This document shows positions 42,726-47,463 of a stretch of 64,000 bases of DNA, piece after piece. This stretch comes from Paenibacillus lutimineralis (GTDB lineage: Bacteria > Bacillota > Bacilli > Paenibacillales > Paenibacillaceae), in the NCBI RefSeq assembly GCF_003991425.1, contig NZ_CP034346.1:2951501-3015500 (forward strand), in the 5' to 3' direction. Within the stretch, counting starts at the first letter, position 1; each line of letters begins with the position of its first letter. The notes under the pieces were generated by a model. It was given only the letters and a program-made list of their open reading frames with translations. It was not told where the DNA came from and did no database searches. The translations under genes and the position numbers were made by a program.

Positions 42726-44072
42726 TTAGATGACCAAGCTTAGCAATAGAATAACTCCTAAGCCAGCTACAGATATGATCGTTTCAAGTAAAGTCCAGGT
42801 CGCAAAAGTCTCTTTCATGCTTAAGCCAAAGTATTCCTTGAACATCCAGAAGCCGGCATCATTCACATGCGAGGCAATGACACTGCCGGCTCCGGTTGCA
42901 AGGACGACTAGAGCCAGGTTCACGTCAGTTTGTCCTAACATAGGAAGGACCAGACCGGTAGTCGTTAAGGCGGCGACCGTAGCAGACCCCAAGGAAATAC
43001 GCAAAATGGCAGCAATGATCCAGGCAAGCAGAATTGGCGACAATGAAGTTCCTTGGAATAGCTCAGCTACGTAGTCGCCAACGCCTCCATCAATTAATAC
43101 TTGCTTGAAGGCTCCGCCTCCGCCAATGATCAACAGCATCATCCCAATGTTGGAGATCGCAGTAGCGCAGGATTCCATGACGTTCTTAATAGGAATCTTC
43201 CTTGCCAATCCCATAGTATAGATCGCGACTAATAAGGAGATCAACATGGATACATCCGCGTTACCTATGAATCCGATGCCTTTGATTAGAGCATTTTCGT
43301 TGAATCCTATCGTTTTTTGCAGCAAAGTAATCAACGTACCGATAGACATGAGAATAACGGGCAGCAAAGCGGTAAAGACACTAATTCCAAACCCAGGTGT
43401 GTCTTCAAGTTTAAATACTTTTTGTTCGCCTAAGGAACGTATATCACCCGTTTTTGTAAATGCTTCGGGTACCAGCCGTTTAGCTAGCTTCGTAAATAAT
43501 GGACCAGCAATAATAACCGTTGGAATAGCTACAATTAATCCATATAGCAATACATGGCCAAGGTTCGCTCCAAGTTCACCGGCAATCGCTGTTGGTCCTG
43601 GATGCGGCGGTAAAAATCCATGCGTTACAGACAGAGCTGCGCCCATGGGAATACCAAGATACAGGATAGAAACCTTCAATTCTCTTGAAATAGCAAAGAT
43701 AATTGGAATTAATAATACTAAACCTACTTCAAAAAATAAGGCAATACCAATAATAAACGAGGCGGTCACGACAGCCCATTGAATATTTTTCTCACCGAAT
43801 TTGTTCACAAGGGTCATAGCGATGCGTTGGGCACCACCGGAATCGGAGAGCAGCTTCCCTAGCATCGCACCAAGTCCAAAAATGAGTGCTAAGTGGCCTA
43901 GTGTTCCACCTAATCCCGACTCAATCGTTGTTACTATTTTGTCTAGCGGGATGCCAAGTGCTAAAGAAACACCGAAGGACACAATAATCAATGATACGAA
44001 GGTGTTTAATTTAAAGAACATAATTAAAATCAGTAATGCGACTATCCCAATTGCTACAATGACTAATGGCAT
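42726..44072 (-). CDS. gntP: Gluconate:H+ symporter
   Basis: The 448-residue membrane protein with about 12-14 helices belongs to the GntP family. Motifs include FGLGAMLGKLLSDSGGAQRIAMTLV, GFLPPHPGPTAIAGELGANLGH and the C-terminal ASHVNDAGFWMFKEYFGLS, all typical. It imports gluconate with protons for phosphorylation by the gluconokinase whose gene lies 33 bases upstream in the same transcript. Expression should depend on the operator at 45884. Confidence 0.93.
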   Translation of the reverse strand: MPLVIVAIGIVALLILIMFFKLNTFVSLIIVSFGVSLALGIPLDKIVTTIESGLGGTLGHLALIFGLGAMLGKLLSDSGGAQRIAMTLVNKFGEKNIQWAVVTASFIIGIALFFEVGLVLLIPIIFAISRELKVSILYLGIPMGAALSVTHGFLPPHPGPTAIAGELGANLGHVLLYGLIVAIPTVIIAGPLFTKLAKRLVPEAFTKTGDIRSLGEQKVFKLEDTPGFGISVFTALLPVILMSIGTLITLLQKTIGFNENALIKGIGFIGNADVSMLISLLVAIYTMGLARKIPIKNVMESCATAISNIGMMLLIIGGGGAFKQVLIDGGVGDYVAELFQGTSLSPILLAWIIAAILRISLGSATVAALTTTGLVLPMLGQTDVNLALVVLATGAGSVIASHVNDAGFWMFKEYFGLSMKETFATWTLLETIISVAGLGVILLLSLVI

Positions 44073-44105: not shown

Positions 44106-45638
44106 TTAGATTAAGCTTCTCTGATAATCGGTAATTCGCGTATATTCATCTGTTAATACTCTTGATAGGCTGATGAATACCGGAAGTAACTGTCTATATT
44201 CTTTTACTGCTTCTTCTGTTGGGGTGTGTCTGTAAGTACTGCCAATCATTTGCTTAACAATCTCAAAAGATTCAATTTGTCCTGTAGCGTAGAGACCTAG
44301 TATACATGCCCCTAGGCAAGAACTTTCGTAGCTTAAAGGTACAACGACTTCGGATTCGAAAATATCGGACATCATCTGCCGCCATACCTCGGATCTTGCA
44401 AAGCCTCCAGTTGCTTGAATTCGGGTTACCGGCCCATCCATGCACTCGGTTAAGGCTAAGAACACGGTATATAAGTTATAAATAACCCCTTCCAAAGCAG
44501 CGCGAATCATATGCTCTTTTTTATGCGACATGGCTAGACCAAAGAATGAGCCGCGAACTTTAGGATTCCATAGTGGGGCACGTTCACCGGCAAGATAGGG
44601 GTGAAATATAAGTCCGTCTGCTCCGGGTCTTACACGCTCAGCAATTTTGGTTAATACATCGTAAGGATCAATTCCTAGTCTTTTGGCCGTCTCCACCTCG
44701 GAAGAAGCAAGCTCATCACGAATCCAACGGAGAACCATACCTCCATTGTTAACAGGTCCGCCAATGACCCAATGTTTTTCCGTTAAGGCATAACAGAATA
44801 TTCTTTCTTTTTCATCGGTTTGCGGCTTATCAATCACGGTTCGAATCGCTCCGCTTGTCCCGATAGTAACGGCAATCTCTCCTTTTCCAATCGCATTTAC
44901 ACCTAGATTAGACAGCACACCATCACTGGCTCCAATGACAAATGGAGTCTGCGGATCAATACCCATTCTTTGGGCTAGGGCTTGATTGCAATTGCTCAAG
45001 ACTTGGGTGGTCGGCACGAGTTCAGACAATTGATCACGCGTAATACCGGCAATATTTAATGCTCCTTCATCCCAATCTAACGTGAATAGATTCATCATAC
45101 CCATGCTCGAGGCAAGGGAGTGATCGATAACATAGCGGTCAAATAATTTTTTGAAGATATATTCTTTGATTCCGATATATTTTTTCGCTTTAGCCGCGAT
45201 CTCAGGCCGATCATTCACGATCCAGGTTATTTTACTTAACGGAGACATGGGGTGGATAGGAGTGCCTGTACGTCTATAGATTTCATGGCCGTTCAATTCC
45301 TCTTTAATCTTCTGAGCCCATGCTTCACTGCGATTATCCGCCCAGGTAATACAAGGTGTCAGCGGCAGATCGCTGTCATCCATTGCAATAACACTATGCA
45401 TAGCACTGCTAAATGAAATAAATGCCGGTTGCTTATCAGGATGGTGTAACGTTATGTTCGAAGTCCCCTGTAATACGGCCTGAAAAATCTCTTCCGGATC
45501 TTGTTCCGCTGTGGACATGTCCGGTGTATGCAGAGGGTAACCAATATTCTCTGTTTGAATGACTTCACCTTGATCGGTGAACAATACCGCTTTGGTACTT
45601 GTGGTGCCAATATCTACACCTAACATGTAGCTACTCAT
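44106..45638 (-). CDS. gntK: Gluconokinase (FGGY family)
   Basis: The 510-residue FGGY kinase starts LGVDIGTTSTKAVLFTDQG (phosphate loop 1) and has TPCITWADNRS, GASDGVLSNLGVNAIGKGEIAVTIGTSGAIRT and the ATP-site TGGFARSEVWRQMM. It phosphorylates gluconate to 6-phosphogluconate. It is the first gene of the gnt operon after loss of gntR and is followed by gntP. The start ATG lies 12 bases behind AAGGAG, a little wide; an internal ATG at residue 5 is possible. Confidence 0.93.
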   Translation of the reverse strand: MSSYMLGVDIGTTSTKAVLFTDQGEVIQTENIGYPLHTPDMSTAEQDPEEIFQAVLQGTSNITLHHPDKQPAFISFSSAMHSVIAMDDSDLPLTPCITWADNRSEAWAQKIKEELNGHEIYRRTGTPIHPMSPLSKITWIVNDRPEIAAKAKKYIGIKEYIFKKLFDRYVIDHSLASSMGMMNLFTLDWDEGALNIAGITRDQLSELVPTTQVLSNCNQALAQRMGIDPQTPFVIGASDGVLSNLGVNAIGKGEIAVTIGTSGAIRTVIDKPQTDEKERIFCYALTEKHWVIGGPVNNGGMVLRWIRDELASSEVETAKRLGIDPYDVLTKIAERVRPGADGLIFHPYLAGERAPLWNPKVRGSFFGLAMSHKKEHMIRAALEGVIYNLYTVFLALTECMDGPVTRIQATGGFARSEVWRQMMSDIFESEVVVPLSYESSCLGACILGLYATGQIESFEIVKQMIGSTYRHTPTEEAVKEYRQLLPVFISLSRVLTDEYTRITDYQRSLI

Positions 45639-45672
45639 GATGTTGTTCTACTCCTTTAGTTAACATTTGCAT

Positions 45673-45870
45673 CTATATTAAAATAAAGCTTTCCATTACA
45701 GACTTTAAATTATTCCAAATCCTATTTTCATAGGCCAGCTCCATAGTTTCTCACGGATGGAGGGAGGAGCGCCTTACTGAATTGAAAACCAGTAGTCATT
45801 TTTCTCGTACAAAATGGCACCGCTTTCTTTATTGCCGGAAATAATTAATCAGTTTTGATGACACCAACCT
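45673..45870 (-). pseudogene. gntR: Decayed gntR (gluconate repressor) between operator and gntK
   Basis: Minus-strand pieces match GntR of Bacillus as I remember it. Near the promoter: LIISGNKESGAILYEK then FSIQ, an in-frame stop and PPSIREKL (compare IISGxxESGxILSE and SPIREAL in the winged helix). Nearer gntK: RIWNNLKSVMESFILI and a TAG at 45675 (compare IWNNLKPVMESFILL of the sensor domain). The sensor domain in between is mostly deleted, and frameshifts and stops interrupt the rest. The position, between the GntR operator and gntK, is exactly that of gntR in the ancestral gnt operon. Confidence 0.85.
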
Positions 45871-45883
45871 CACCATCAACAGT

Positions 45884-45927
45884 ATACTTGTATACAAGTA
45901 TTATACTCTGGATTGTTCATTATGCAA
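45884..45927 (-). promoter_or_regulatory. gnt promoter with GntR operator and possible cre
   Basis: ATACTTGTATACAAGTAT (45884-45901) is a perfect 18-base palindrome identical to the operator known for B. subtilis GntR. On the minus strand TTGCAT (45922-45927), 16 bases, and TATAAT (45900-45905) make a SigA promoter whose -10 box overlaps the operator edge. TGCAAGCGTTTTAT at 45923-45936 resembles a catabolite-repression cre (11 of 14) over the -35 box. Confidence 0.88.
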
Positions 45928-45977
45928 GCGTTTTATTATTGAGATAGGAGAAAATATGCATTCACTGAAATTAGATC

Positions 45978-46023: not shown

Positions 46024-46818
46024 GTGAGGGATCTGTATAGCATTGGGCAAGTATCTAAAAGAAGCAATGTCTCCATTAGTACGCTTCGCTATTATGATGA
46101 AATAGGCCTCTTAAAGCCAGCAGAAGTGAATGAATCAGGCTATAGATATTACTCAGATAAGGAGCTGATTCTGCTGCAGCATATTGCTGCATTAAAAGAG
46201 ATTGGGTTTACCTTGAAAGGCATTAGAAATTTACTATTATCTGGAGAGGATACGGATGAGGGATCGCTCAAGTCATTTTATAAAATTGAACTGGAGGCCA
46301 TTGAGGAGAAGAGAAGAAAACTGGATGTATTAGAGAAACTGTTGATTACCGCTAATCATGCGTTTGAGTTGAAGGGCAAGGCAGACCCGGATGACATCCT
46401 CATGTTTATAAAGGCAATTCAAACTCCGCCAAACATCAGAGAGGCCTTTCTTACGGAACATTTTACAGATAGAGAGATAAAGATCATTAAAAGTTTGCCG
46501 GATTTAAGCTCGAATGATCCCAAGACCGCTCAATGGATTCAGTTAATTCGGATGGCGGCGAAACATATCGACGAAGAGCCTTCTTCTGAAATTTCACAGA
46601 GGTTGGCAAAACAATTTTTCGAGATTTCTATGGAATGGTTCGATCAAGACGAGAAGCTTATCGATAAGTATTGGACCCTAATCCGGCCTGAAGAAGGGAT
46701 GGAAGAGAAGGTGTATGGGCTAGATCGCAAAGTGATGGATTACATCGATCGTATTGTAGATTGGTATTTAGCTGTAAATGTACAGGAGGAAAATCGGTTA
46801 AATGAACAAAAAAATTAA
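46024..46818 (+). CDS. MerR family regulator with TipAS-like C-terminal domain
   Basis: The 264-residue protein has the MerR HTH (YSIGQVSKRSNVSISTLRYYDEIGLLKP) and coiled-coil dimer helix (about 75-115), then a helical C-terminal domain (about 130-264; REAFLTEHFTDREIKII, EISMEWFDQDEKLI) resembling the TipAS drug-binding domain. The gene follows its own MerR-type promoter. Its end overlaps the first SMR gene by 17 bases, so it probably activates the exporter on binding a toxic compound. The GTG start is close behind GAGGAG; the spacing is short. Confidence 0.87.
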   Translation: MRDLYSIGQVSKRSNVSISTLRYYDEIGLLKPAEVNESGYRYYSDKELILLQHIAALKEIGFTLKGIRNLLLSGEDTDEGSLKSFYKIELEAIEEKRRKLDVLEKLLITANHAFELKGKADPDDILMFIKAIQTPPNIREAFLTEHFTDREIKIIKSLPDLSSNDPKTAQWIQLIRMAAKHIDEEPSSEISQRLAKQFFEISMEWFDQDEKLIDKYWTLIRPEEGMEEKVYGLDRKVMDYIDRIVDWYLAVNVQEENRLNEQKN

Positions 46819-47149
46819 AACGATGAGTGAGAGCAGAGCGTGGGGTTACGTGATCTTGGGCGGATTGCTGGAAATTATATGGGCCAGTGGATTTAAATAT
46901 GAGAGTGTTCCTAGTATAGTCGTACTCATCTCTCTTCTACTTAGTTTCGAATTAATCATAAGCGCGGCCAAAATACTTCCGGTGGGAACGGTGTACGCCG
47001 TATTCGCAGGAATCGGAACGTTGGGGGCCACCGCTGTTGAGATTATATACTCGGGTGGTAGCGTAAGTATGTTAAGAGTTGCATTTATACTTCTATTGCT
47101 CGCATGCATCATTAGCTTAAAGTTGACTAGCAGAGGGGGAAGGGGATAA
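46802..47149 (+). CDS. SMR family transporter subunit A
   Basis: The 115-residue protein has four membrane helices with the SMR signature GGLLEIIWASGFKY (Glu of helix 1 that binds proton and drug), YAVFAGIGTLGATAVEIIYS and a C-terminal helix. It overlaps merR by 17 bases and the next SMR gene by one base, typical for heterodimeric SMR pairs such as YkkCD or EbrAB that export toxic cations. The substrate may be a drug or guanidinium-like compound. Confidence 0.9.
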   Translation: MNKKIKTMSESRAWGYVILGGLLEIIWASGFKYESVPSIVVLISLLLSFELIISAAKILPVGTVYAVFAGIGTLGATAVEIIYSGGSVSMLRVAFILLLLACIISLKLTSRGGRG

Positions 47150-47463
47150 TGGCATGGCCACTGCTCATAGCGGCTGGATTGCTTGAAGTCATTGGTGTAA
47201 TTGGAATCAAGCGGGTAGCTGAAAGGAACAATTTCACGAATAATCTACTCATGGTGATTAGTTTCCTGGCTAGCTTCCTATTGCTTGCTGAAGCCATGAA
47301 GACCATCCCGTTGGCAACCGCTTATGCGGTGTGGACAGGAGTCGGAACGGTGGGGGCAGCCATCGTGGGAATGATCTGCTTCCATGAGTCCAAGAGTTGG
47401 ATGCGAATGATCACCATGATAGGCATTATTTTATCGATTGTTGGGTTAAAAGTTGTGGGGTAA
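47149..47463 (+). CDS. SMR family transporter subunit B
   Basis: The 104-residue partner of the preceding protein, with four helices: LLIAAGLLEVIGVIGIKRV (Glu in helix 1), LATAYAVWTGVGTVGAAIVGMICF and the C-terminal helix ending VGLKVVG. The ATG shares a base with the TAA of subunit A, so translation is coupled. The pair should form an antiparallel heterodimer. Confidence 0.9.
   Translation: MAWPLLIAAGLLEVIGVIGIKRVAERNNFTNNLLMVISFLASFLLLAEAMKTIPLATAYAVWTGVGTVGAAIVGMICFHESKSWMRMITMIGIILSIVGLKVVG

Follow-up and report, generated by a model that had tools for sequence, protein, structure and literature searches.

The gluconate operon of Bacillus subtilis, gntRKPZ, has the gene order gntR-gntK-gntP. 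In one study, the gnt operon of this species is cited as an example of a CcpA roadblock, with two CcpA sites, the gntR-1 cre at -41 and the gntR-2 cre (TGAAAGCGGTACCA) at +148 inside gntR (PMC3463425). Passages of another study describe two functionally redundant gluconate repressors in Corynebacterium glutamicum, GntR1 and GntR2, which are FCD regulators of the GntR type serving gntP, gntK and gnd (PMC2230225). Neighbor regulators move together with the operons that they control and are often lost, as stated in passages of Price et al. (2008, PMC2395238). Those passages contain no case in which the operator outlasts such a loss to serve a resident relative. Frequent loss of travelling regulators and redundant gluconate repressors are known, and the new element reported here is their combination with a graded series of decay.

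The locus described here lies in the window, a stretch of 64,000 nucleotides from Paenibacillus lutimineralis (contig NZ_CP034346.1, positions 2,951,501 to 3,015,500). The minus strand between 45648 and 45936 carries a gnt promoter, a GntR operator and a decayed gntR, which are followed by intact gntK and gntP. Like B. subtilis gntRKPZ, the locus has this gene order, an operator at the promoter and both cre positions; unlike it, the gntR of the window is a pseudogene, and an intact gntR as first gene is absent. The gnt operon here, probably a borrowed one, has lost its gntR and kept its operator, and GntR2, a repressor homologue resident in the genome, most likely now works the switch.

The promoter is of the sigma-70 type, with a -35 hexamer TTGCAT (45922..45927, minus strand) that has the same letters in two related genomes, G031 and Paenibacillus sp. 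D2_2. A 16-bp spacer separates it from the -10 hexamer TATAAT (45900..45905, minus strand). The GntR operator ATACTTGTATACAAGTAT (45884..45901, minus strand) is a perfect 18-bp palindrome that shares 2 bp with the -10 hexamer; a preliminary description of this DNA had reported a perfect operator overlapping the -10 box. It is the single exact copy in the whole genome of 6,497,679 bp (one contig). Part of the operator and the next 2 bases together form the exact 16-mer TTGTATACAAGTATAC (45882-45897, minus strand). The operator 18-mer was found in no article in a literature search, and among the titles and beginnings of abstracts listed no article was recognised as describing this state of a kept operator and a lost gntR. 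Downstream on the same strand, gntK (44106..45638) encodes a gluconate kinase of 510 aa and gntP (42726..44072) a gluconate permease of 448 aa. Both are intact neighbours and exceed the cut-offs of their NCBIfam models, TIGR01314 and TIGR00791, respectively.

Decay of gntR, proposed in the preliminary description, was confirmed. Three-frame translation recovers the GntR fragments named there, with stops and frame changes, and the interval between operator and gntK contains no ORF of at least 50 aa. In a tblastn search with an intact GntR as query against a 1.56-kb stretch, to which the E values refer, residues 160-181 (IWNNLKSVMESFIL...) matched at 73% with an E of 5e-6, which is significant, and with an in-frame stop (45655..45720, minus strand). 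Residues at about 31-44 (IISG-NK-ESGAIL; 45809..45845, minus strand) matched at 71%; this piece alone is below significance (E 0.09) and is supportive beside residues 160-181. A search of the whole genome with GntR also returned the window locus, with residues 155-181 at an E of 0.0024 and a stop inside. The helix-turn-helix-like piece PPSIREKL (45733..45769, minus strand), comparable to RSPIREAL, is a plausible GntR remnant, probably of the recognition helix, judged by translation and collinearity with G031, its alignment being weak. The former gntR end (45648..45658, minus strand) contains TAAAGGAGTAG, a probable ribosome-binding region of gntK. Plasmid records searched with the gntR remnant gave no match.

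Such decay is rare among close relatives of the operon. Among the best 80 of 374 public loci found by a close gntK, an intact gntR of at least about 240 aa occupies this exact place in 78. The two exceptions are both decayed, namely Paenibacillus sp. D2_2 (locus L035, genome G030), which is the nearest relative with a gntK 93% identical to that of the window, and P. wynnii (locus L060, genome G264). The latter forms a pair, hereafter the wynnii pair, with genome G237. The operator is matched at 18/18 positions in D2_2 and in G031, and at 17/18 in G264 and in G237.

A search of the genome for a gntR paralogue, which the preliminary description had suggested, found an intact GntR2 of 224 aa, which is 43% identical to GntR across 218 aa (E 8e-57). 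This is the sole close GntR relative in the genome. It is encoded between gnd and gntK2 in a native gluconate operon, gnd-gntR2-gntK2, in which gnd and gntK2 exceed their NCBIfam cut-offs. The operon adjoins genes that we take to be gidA, trmE and yidC. GntR2 carries the PF00392 (GntR HTH) and PF07729 (FCD) domains, both over cut-off, and these together with its gnt neighbourhood place it in the FadR/FCD subfamily. Its best NCBIfam match is TIGR03338 with 115 of 271.5 bits; its ligand is left unnamed because it passes no NCBIfam cut-off. In the HTH, 36/60 aligned residues are identical between GntR2 and B-type GntR, and SRSP[IV]REALK is retained. Within the genus, GntR2 has a match at E 1e-10 in 38/39 genomes and a close match (60% or more) in 35.

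GntR-type HTH matches number 28 in the genome, 22 of them over cut-off, and FCD matches only two. A true GntR ortholog elsewhere in the genome was rejected, as the next intact match after GntR2 reaches 27%. Another regulator could act on the operator instead, for example the second FCD-domain GntR at 1.147 Mb, which is the sole FCD match besides GntR2; FadR-type sites have a common core, according to passages of PMC4494728. This is the least probable of the explanations considered, and we give it hardly any weight, as that protein is 27% identical to GntR, has LldR as its best NCBIfam match (below cut-off), has neighbours that look like a glycolate/lactate oxidase set and has no nearby 16-mer site within 1 mismatch.

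A 16-mer that is the inferred site of GntR2 links it to the window operator. The pattern TTGTNNACAAGTATAC occurs upstream of gnd or gntR2 in 28/30 genus loci, with a TA centre in 27. TTGTATACAAGTATAC itself is found upstream in 27/30 GntR2 loci, and TTGTGTACAAGTATAC in one more; the two loci without an exact site are those of the window's own genome and G031. Mononucleotide shuffles gave zero copies of the GntR2-type site. The window operator includes an exact TTGTATACAAGTATAC, which also occurs in 58/80 B-type loci. A tolerance of 1 mismatch gives only two sites in the own genome, the gnd promoter with that mismatch and the window operator without any; at 2 mismatches there are 6 sites, compared with 7 in a reversed-pattern control. 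Native sites of the wynnii lineage have the sequence TTGTCGACAAGTATAC, with one extra change in G237, and a single mismatch is present in the B-type operator of both G264 and G237. A further copy lies downstream of gntR2 in 17/30 loci, with a CG centre in 14 of those; TA-centred upstream and CG-centred downstream sites (L156-L185) are possibly a graded pair. An operator-like AACCTTGCATACAAGTAT inside the end of GntR2 is coding and was taken as chance, reversed-pattern controls being similar at 2-3 mismatches. The common 16-mer suggests that GntR2 may bind the window operator and would then be released from it by gluconate. A specific repressor-operator pair across two operons is thereby predicted.

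The preliminary description had also argued for a recent loss of gntR, and this was rejected. Among the relatives met, G031 is the closest, with identities of 97% for GntR2 and 98% for GntP, and its copy of the operon has the exact operator, a decayed gntR, a gutted gntK (402 bases from ATG to gntP start instead of 1566) and an intact gntP. The central gntR deletion of the window is continuous with that of G031; the common junction rests on continuous homology, and block coordinates are noisy in the low-similarity middle. At gntP fourfold sites, 149/230 are identical between window and G031 (65%), that is, 35% differ. Because the two share the central deletion at this divergence, the operator has long outlived its repressor. 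An N-terminal deletion common to window and D2_2 was considered and dropped, since G031, the sister of the window, retains that part.

Constraint on the operator was assessed against the same sites, of which 118/222 (53%) are identical between window and D2_2. Promoter and operator together match the window at 58/59 positions in G031 and 53/59 in D2_2. All pairs of window, G031 and D2_2 agree at 18/18 of the operator-side bases that follow the -10; fourfold identity in these pairs is 49-65%. The stretch from operator to cre, with 20/36 against G031 and 15/36 against D2_2, is no better conserved than fourfold sites. Fourfold sites may give too high a neutral divergence for window and G031, since even the dead gntR tail is identical at 111/146 positions (76%) in this pair, and promoter function could hold part of the conserved block. 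These comparisons indicate that the gntR loss is not recent and that the operator is constrained past the -10.

The same data bear on the possibility that the operon is constitutive, with the operator unbound and kept through its overlap with the -10 and transcription start or because too little time has passed. The 2-bp overlap, the lack of a close GntR ortholog besides GntR2 in the genome search and the similarity of even the dead tail to that of G031 are in its favour. However, 18 unchanged bases past the -10 in three genomes, a deletion old enough to be common with G031 and a GntR2 homologue with the same inferred site all make it unlikely. The preliminary description had offered constitutive expression or control in trans. 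Control in trans is possible, and constitutive expression is now the less likely branch because an intact GntR2 is present in a native operon and its inferred 16-mer lies inside the window operator.

The favoured explanation, capture of the switch by GntR2, would proceed as follows. A Bacillaceae-type gntR-gntK-gntP operon would have entered a host already having gnd-gntR2-gntK2, in which GntR and GntR2 would read nearly one operator. Beside GntR2 the operon's own gntR would have been redundant, and it is proposed to have decayed for this reason. Selection would have held the operator in place, since GntR2 would now repress the gntK-gntP promoter when no gluconate is there and release it with gluconate. 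The arrangement is comparable to that of GntR1 and GntR2 in C. glutamicum, where both regulator genes are intact; in the genome described here the operon has lost its own, and only the resident homologue survives. If this is correct, 'repressor lost' need not equal 'regulation lost'.

The distribution of gntP gives such coupling a role. The window gntP is the only gntP match of its genome at E <= 1e-60, and G030 and G031 likewise have one match each at E 1e-60. Other species of the genus, for example G003 and G018, have their own gntP2 in a gap of about 1.6 kb between gntR2 and gntK2; in the own genome (G000), G030 and G031, the gntR2-gntK2 spacing is about 50 bases, with no gntP between. Coupling would matter because the only gntP lies here and gnd and gntR2 lie in the other operon; uptake and downstream steps are split over two operons and would therefore need joint control. 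The permease is not indispensable in the genus, since 17/39 genomes show no gntP at E 1e-60. The argument is weaker in the wynnii pair because its native operon carries its own gntP2, which is intact in G264 and cut short with a stop in G237. The G237 gene (L285 6013-7107) matches from about residue 62 on, with the stop inside, and the B-type gntP of that genome is intact.

Window-type gntK was found in 20/394 family genomes, with gntR decayed in 4 and intact in 16; this gntK-based scan is blind to cases such as G031, in which gntK is gutted. All 4 decayed carriers have GntR2 (42-44%). A GntR2-like protein (40-41%) is present in 7/16 intact carriers, all of genus g4, and gntK2 lies beside its gene, within the flanks, in 5 of these 7. 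In the other 9/16 intact carriers a threshold of E 1e-20 gave no GntR2, though one of the nine genomes is only 72% complete. Decay thus occurs in 4/11 genomes with GntR2 and 0/9 without (one-sided Fisher 0.068, with relatives that are not independent). Since gntR persists in the 7 genomes that have a GntR2-like protein, the association between GntR2 and gntR loss is weak. A resident homologue seems to permit the loss without being sufficient for it.

The gntR lesions differ between D2_2, window/G031 and the wynnii pair. A quick GntK tree of 76 rows (24/73 inner branches open) contained all of L035-L069, every third locus from L070 to L114 with three others, 14/19 family loci besides window and D2_2, and 8 native GntK. 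In this tree, the wynnii pair is apart from window/D2_2, whose sisters are G295/G297 with intact gntR. Owing to the separate branches and different lesions, at least two and probably three independent losses of gntR have occurred. The window gntK is grouped among Bacillaceae rows, and within the genus a window-type gntK (93% or more) occurs in 2/40 genomes, plus the decayed one of G031, the others being 69% or less. This patchy distribution and a placement in a tree dominated by another family suggest that the Bacillaceae-type gntR-gntK-gntP operon was probably acquired horizontally. A search for the empty site in G003 and G018 gave matches only inside gntP and gntK (66-89%).

Among the surviving gntR pieces is one at the position of the intragenic cre of B. 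subtilis, a point missed in the preliminary description. The intragenic cre position AGAAAGCGGTGCCA (45815..45828, minus strand) agrees with 12/14 positions of B. subtilis gntR-2 and lies 74 bases after the operator start, compared with about 151 in B. subtilis, with two changes. It matches the cre consensus at 13/16, a score equalled by another stretch in the same scan. The upstream cre position ATAAAACGCTTGCA (45923..45936, minus strand) overlaps the -35 and is a weak match to the cre consensus (13/16). In intact gntR (78 genes thinned to 61), synonymous constraint is strongest, among 207 five-codon stretches, at the IESGT codons over the intragenic cre. The piece is retained in all five remnants (window, D2_2, G031, G264 and G237), and its block at 45809..45845 is 34/37 identical between window and D2_2, compared with 53% at fourfold sites. 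The dead piece may thus persist as a roadblock site for CcpA, partly eroded. Such retention is graded as possible because the site is altered (by two changes in window and also in G031, by one in D2_2 and, in the wynnii pair, by an insertion of 6 bases), its score is equalled elsewhere and other gntR pieces also survive.

The remnant could alternatively be kept for its RNA or peptide, either because its translation is coupled to that of gntK or because it yields a short leader product. The D2_2 remnant (L035 3781-4008) can be read in frame over 75 codons up to a stop that overlaps the start of gntK, and the sequence from the gntR end to the gntK ATG is identical in window and D2_2 (23/23). We consider this very improbable, as the frame is broken in the window and in G264/G237, and the tail between the cre position and the ribosome-binding site is identical to D2_2 at 56/139 positions.

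A broader extension of the GntR2 explanation is tentative, and we put it at somewhat below even chances. The foreign operon would have been captured by a resident repressor homologue two to three times, the dead gntR would be kept only as regulatory DNA (operator and intragenic cre), and the operon would be shrinking to a single permease that serves the resident gluconate regulon. The loci would then form a natural series of foreign-operon wiring, from intact carriers through a dead repressor to G031, which retains promoter, operator and permease.

Some further observations were made at these loci. A MerR-type gene and two small multidrug-resistance genes (SugE-like, below cut-off) lie at 46024-47463, divergent to the gnt promoter; none of these is among the matches listed beside the operon in G031. 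The native gntK2 of G030 (L283 5822-7347) is in two frames with a change near residue 419/420, perhaps through a true frameshift or through an assembly error in this genome of 93% completeness. Two records, L113 and L089, named Chryseobacterium sp. ISL-80 and Paenibacillus sp. FSL R5-0490, respectively, have a gntK 82% identical to that of the window; L089 groups with Cytobacillus firmus in the tree, and L113 is outside the tree. Because their gnt loci are Bacillaceae-like, these records may be mislabelled or contaminated.
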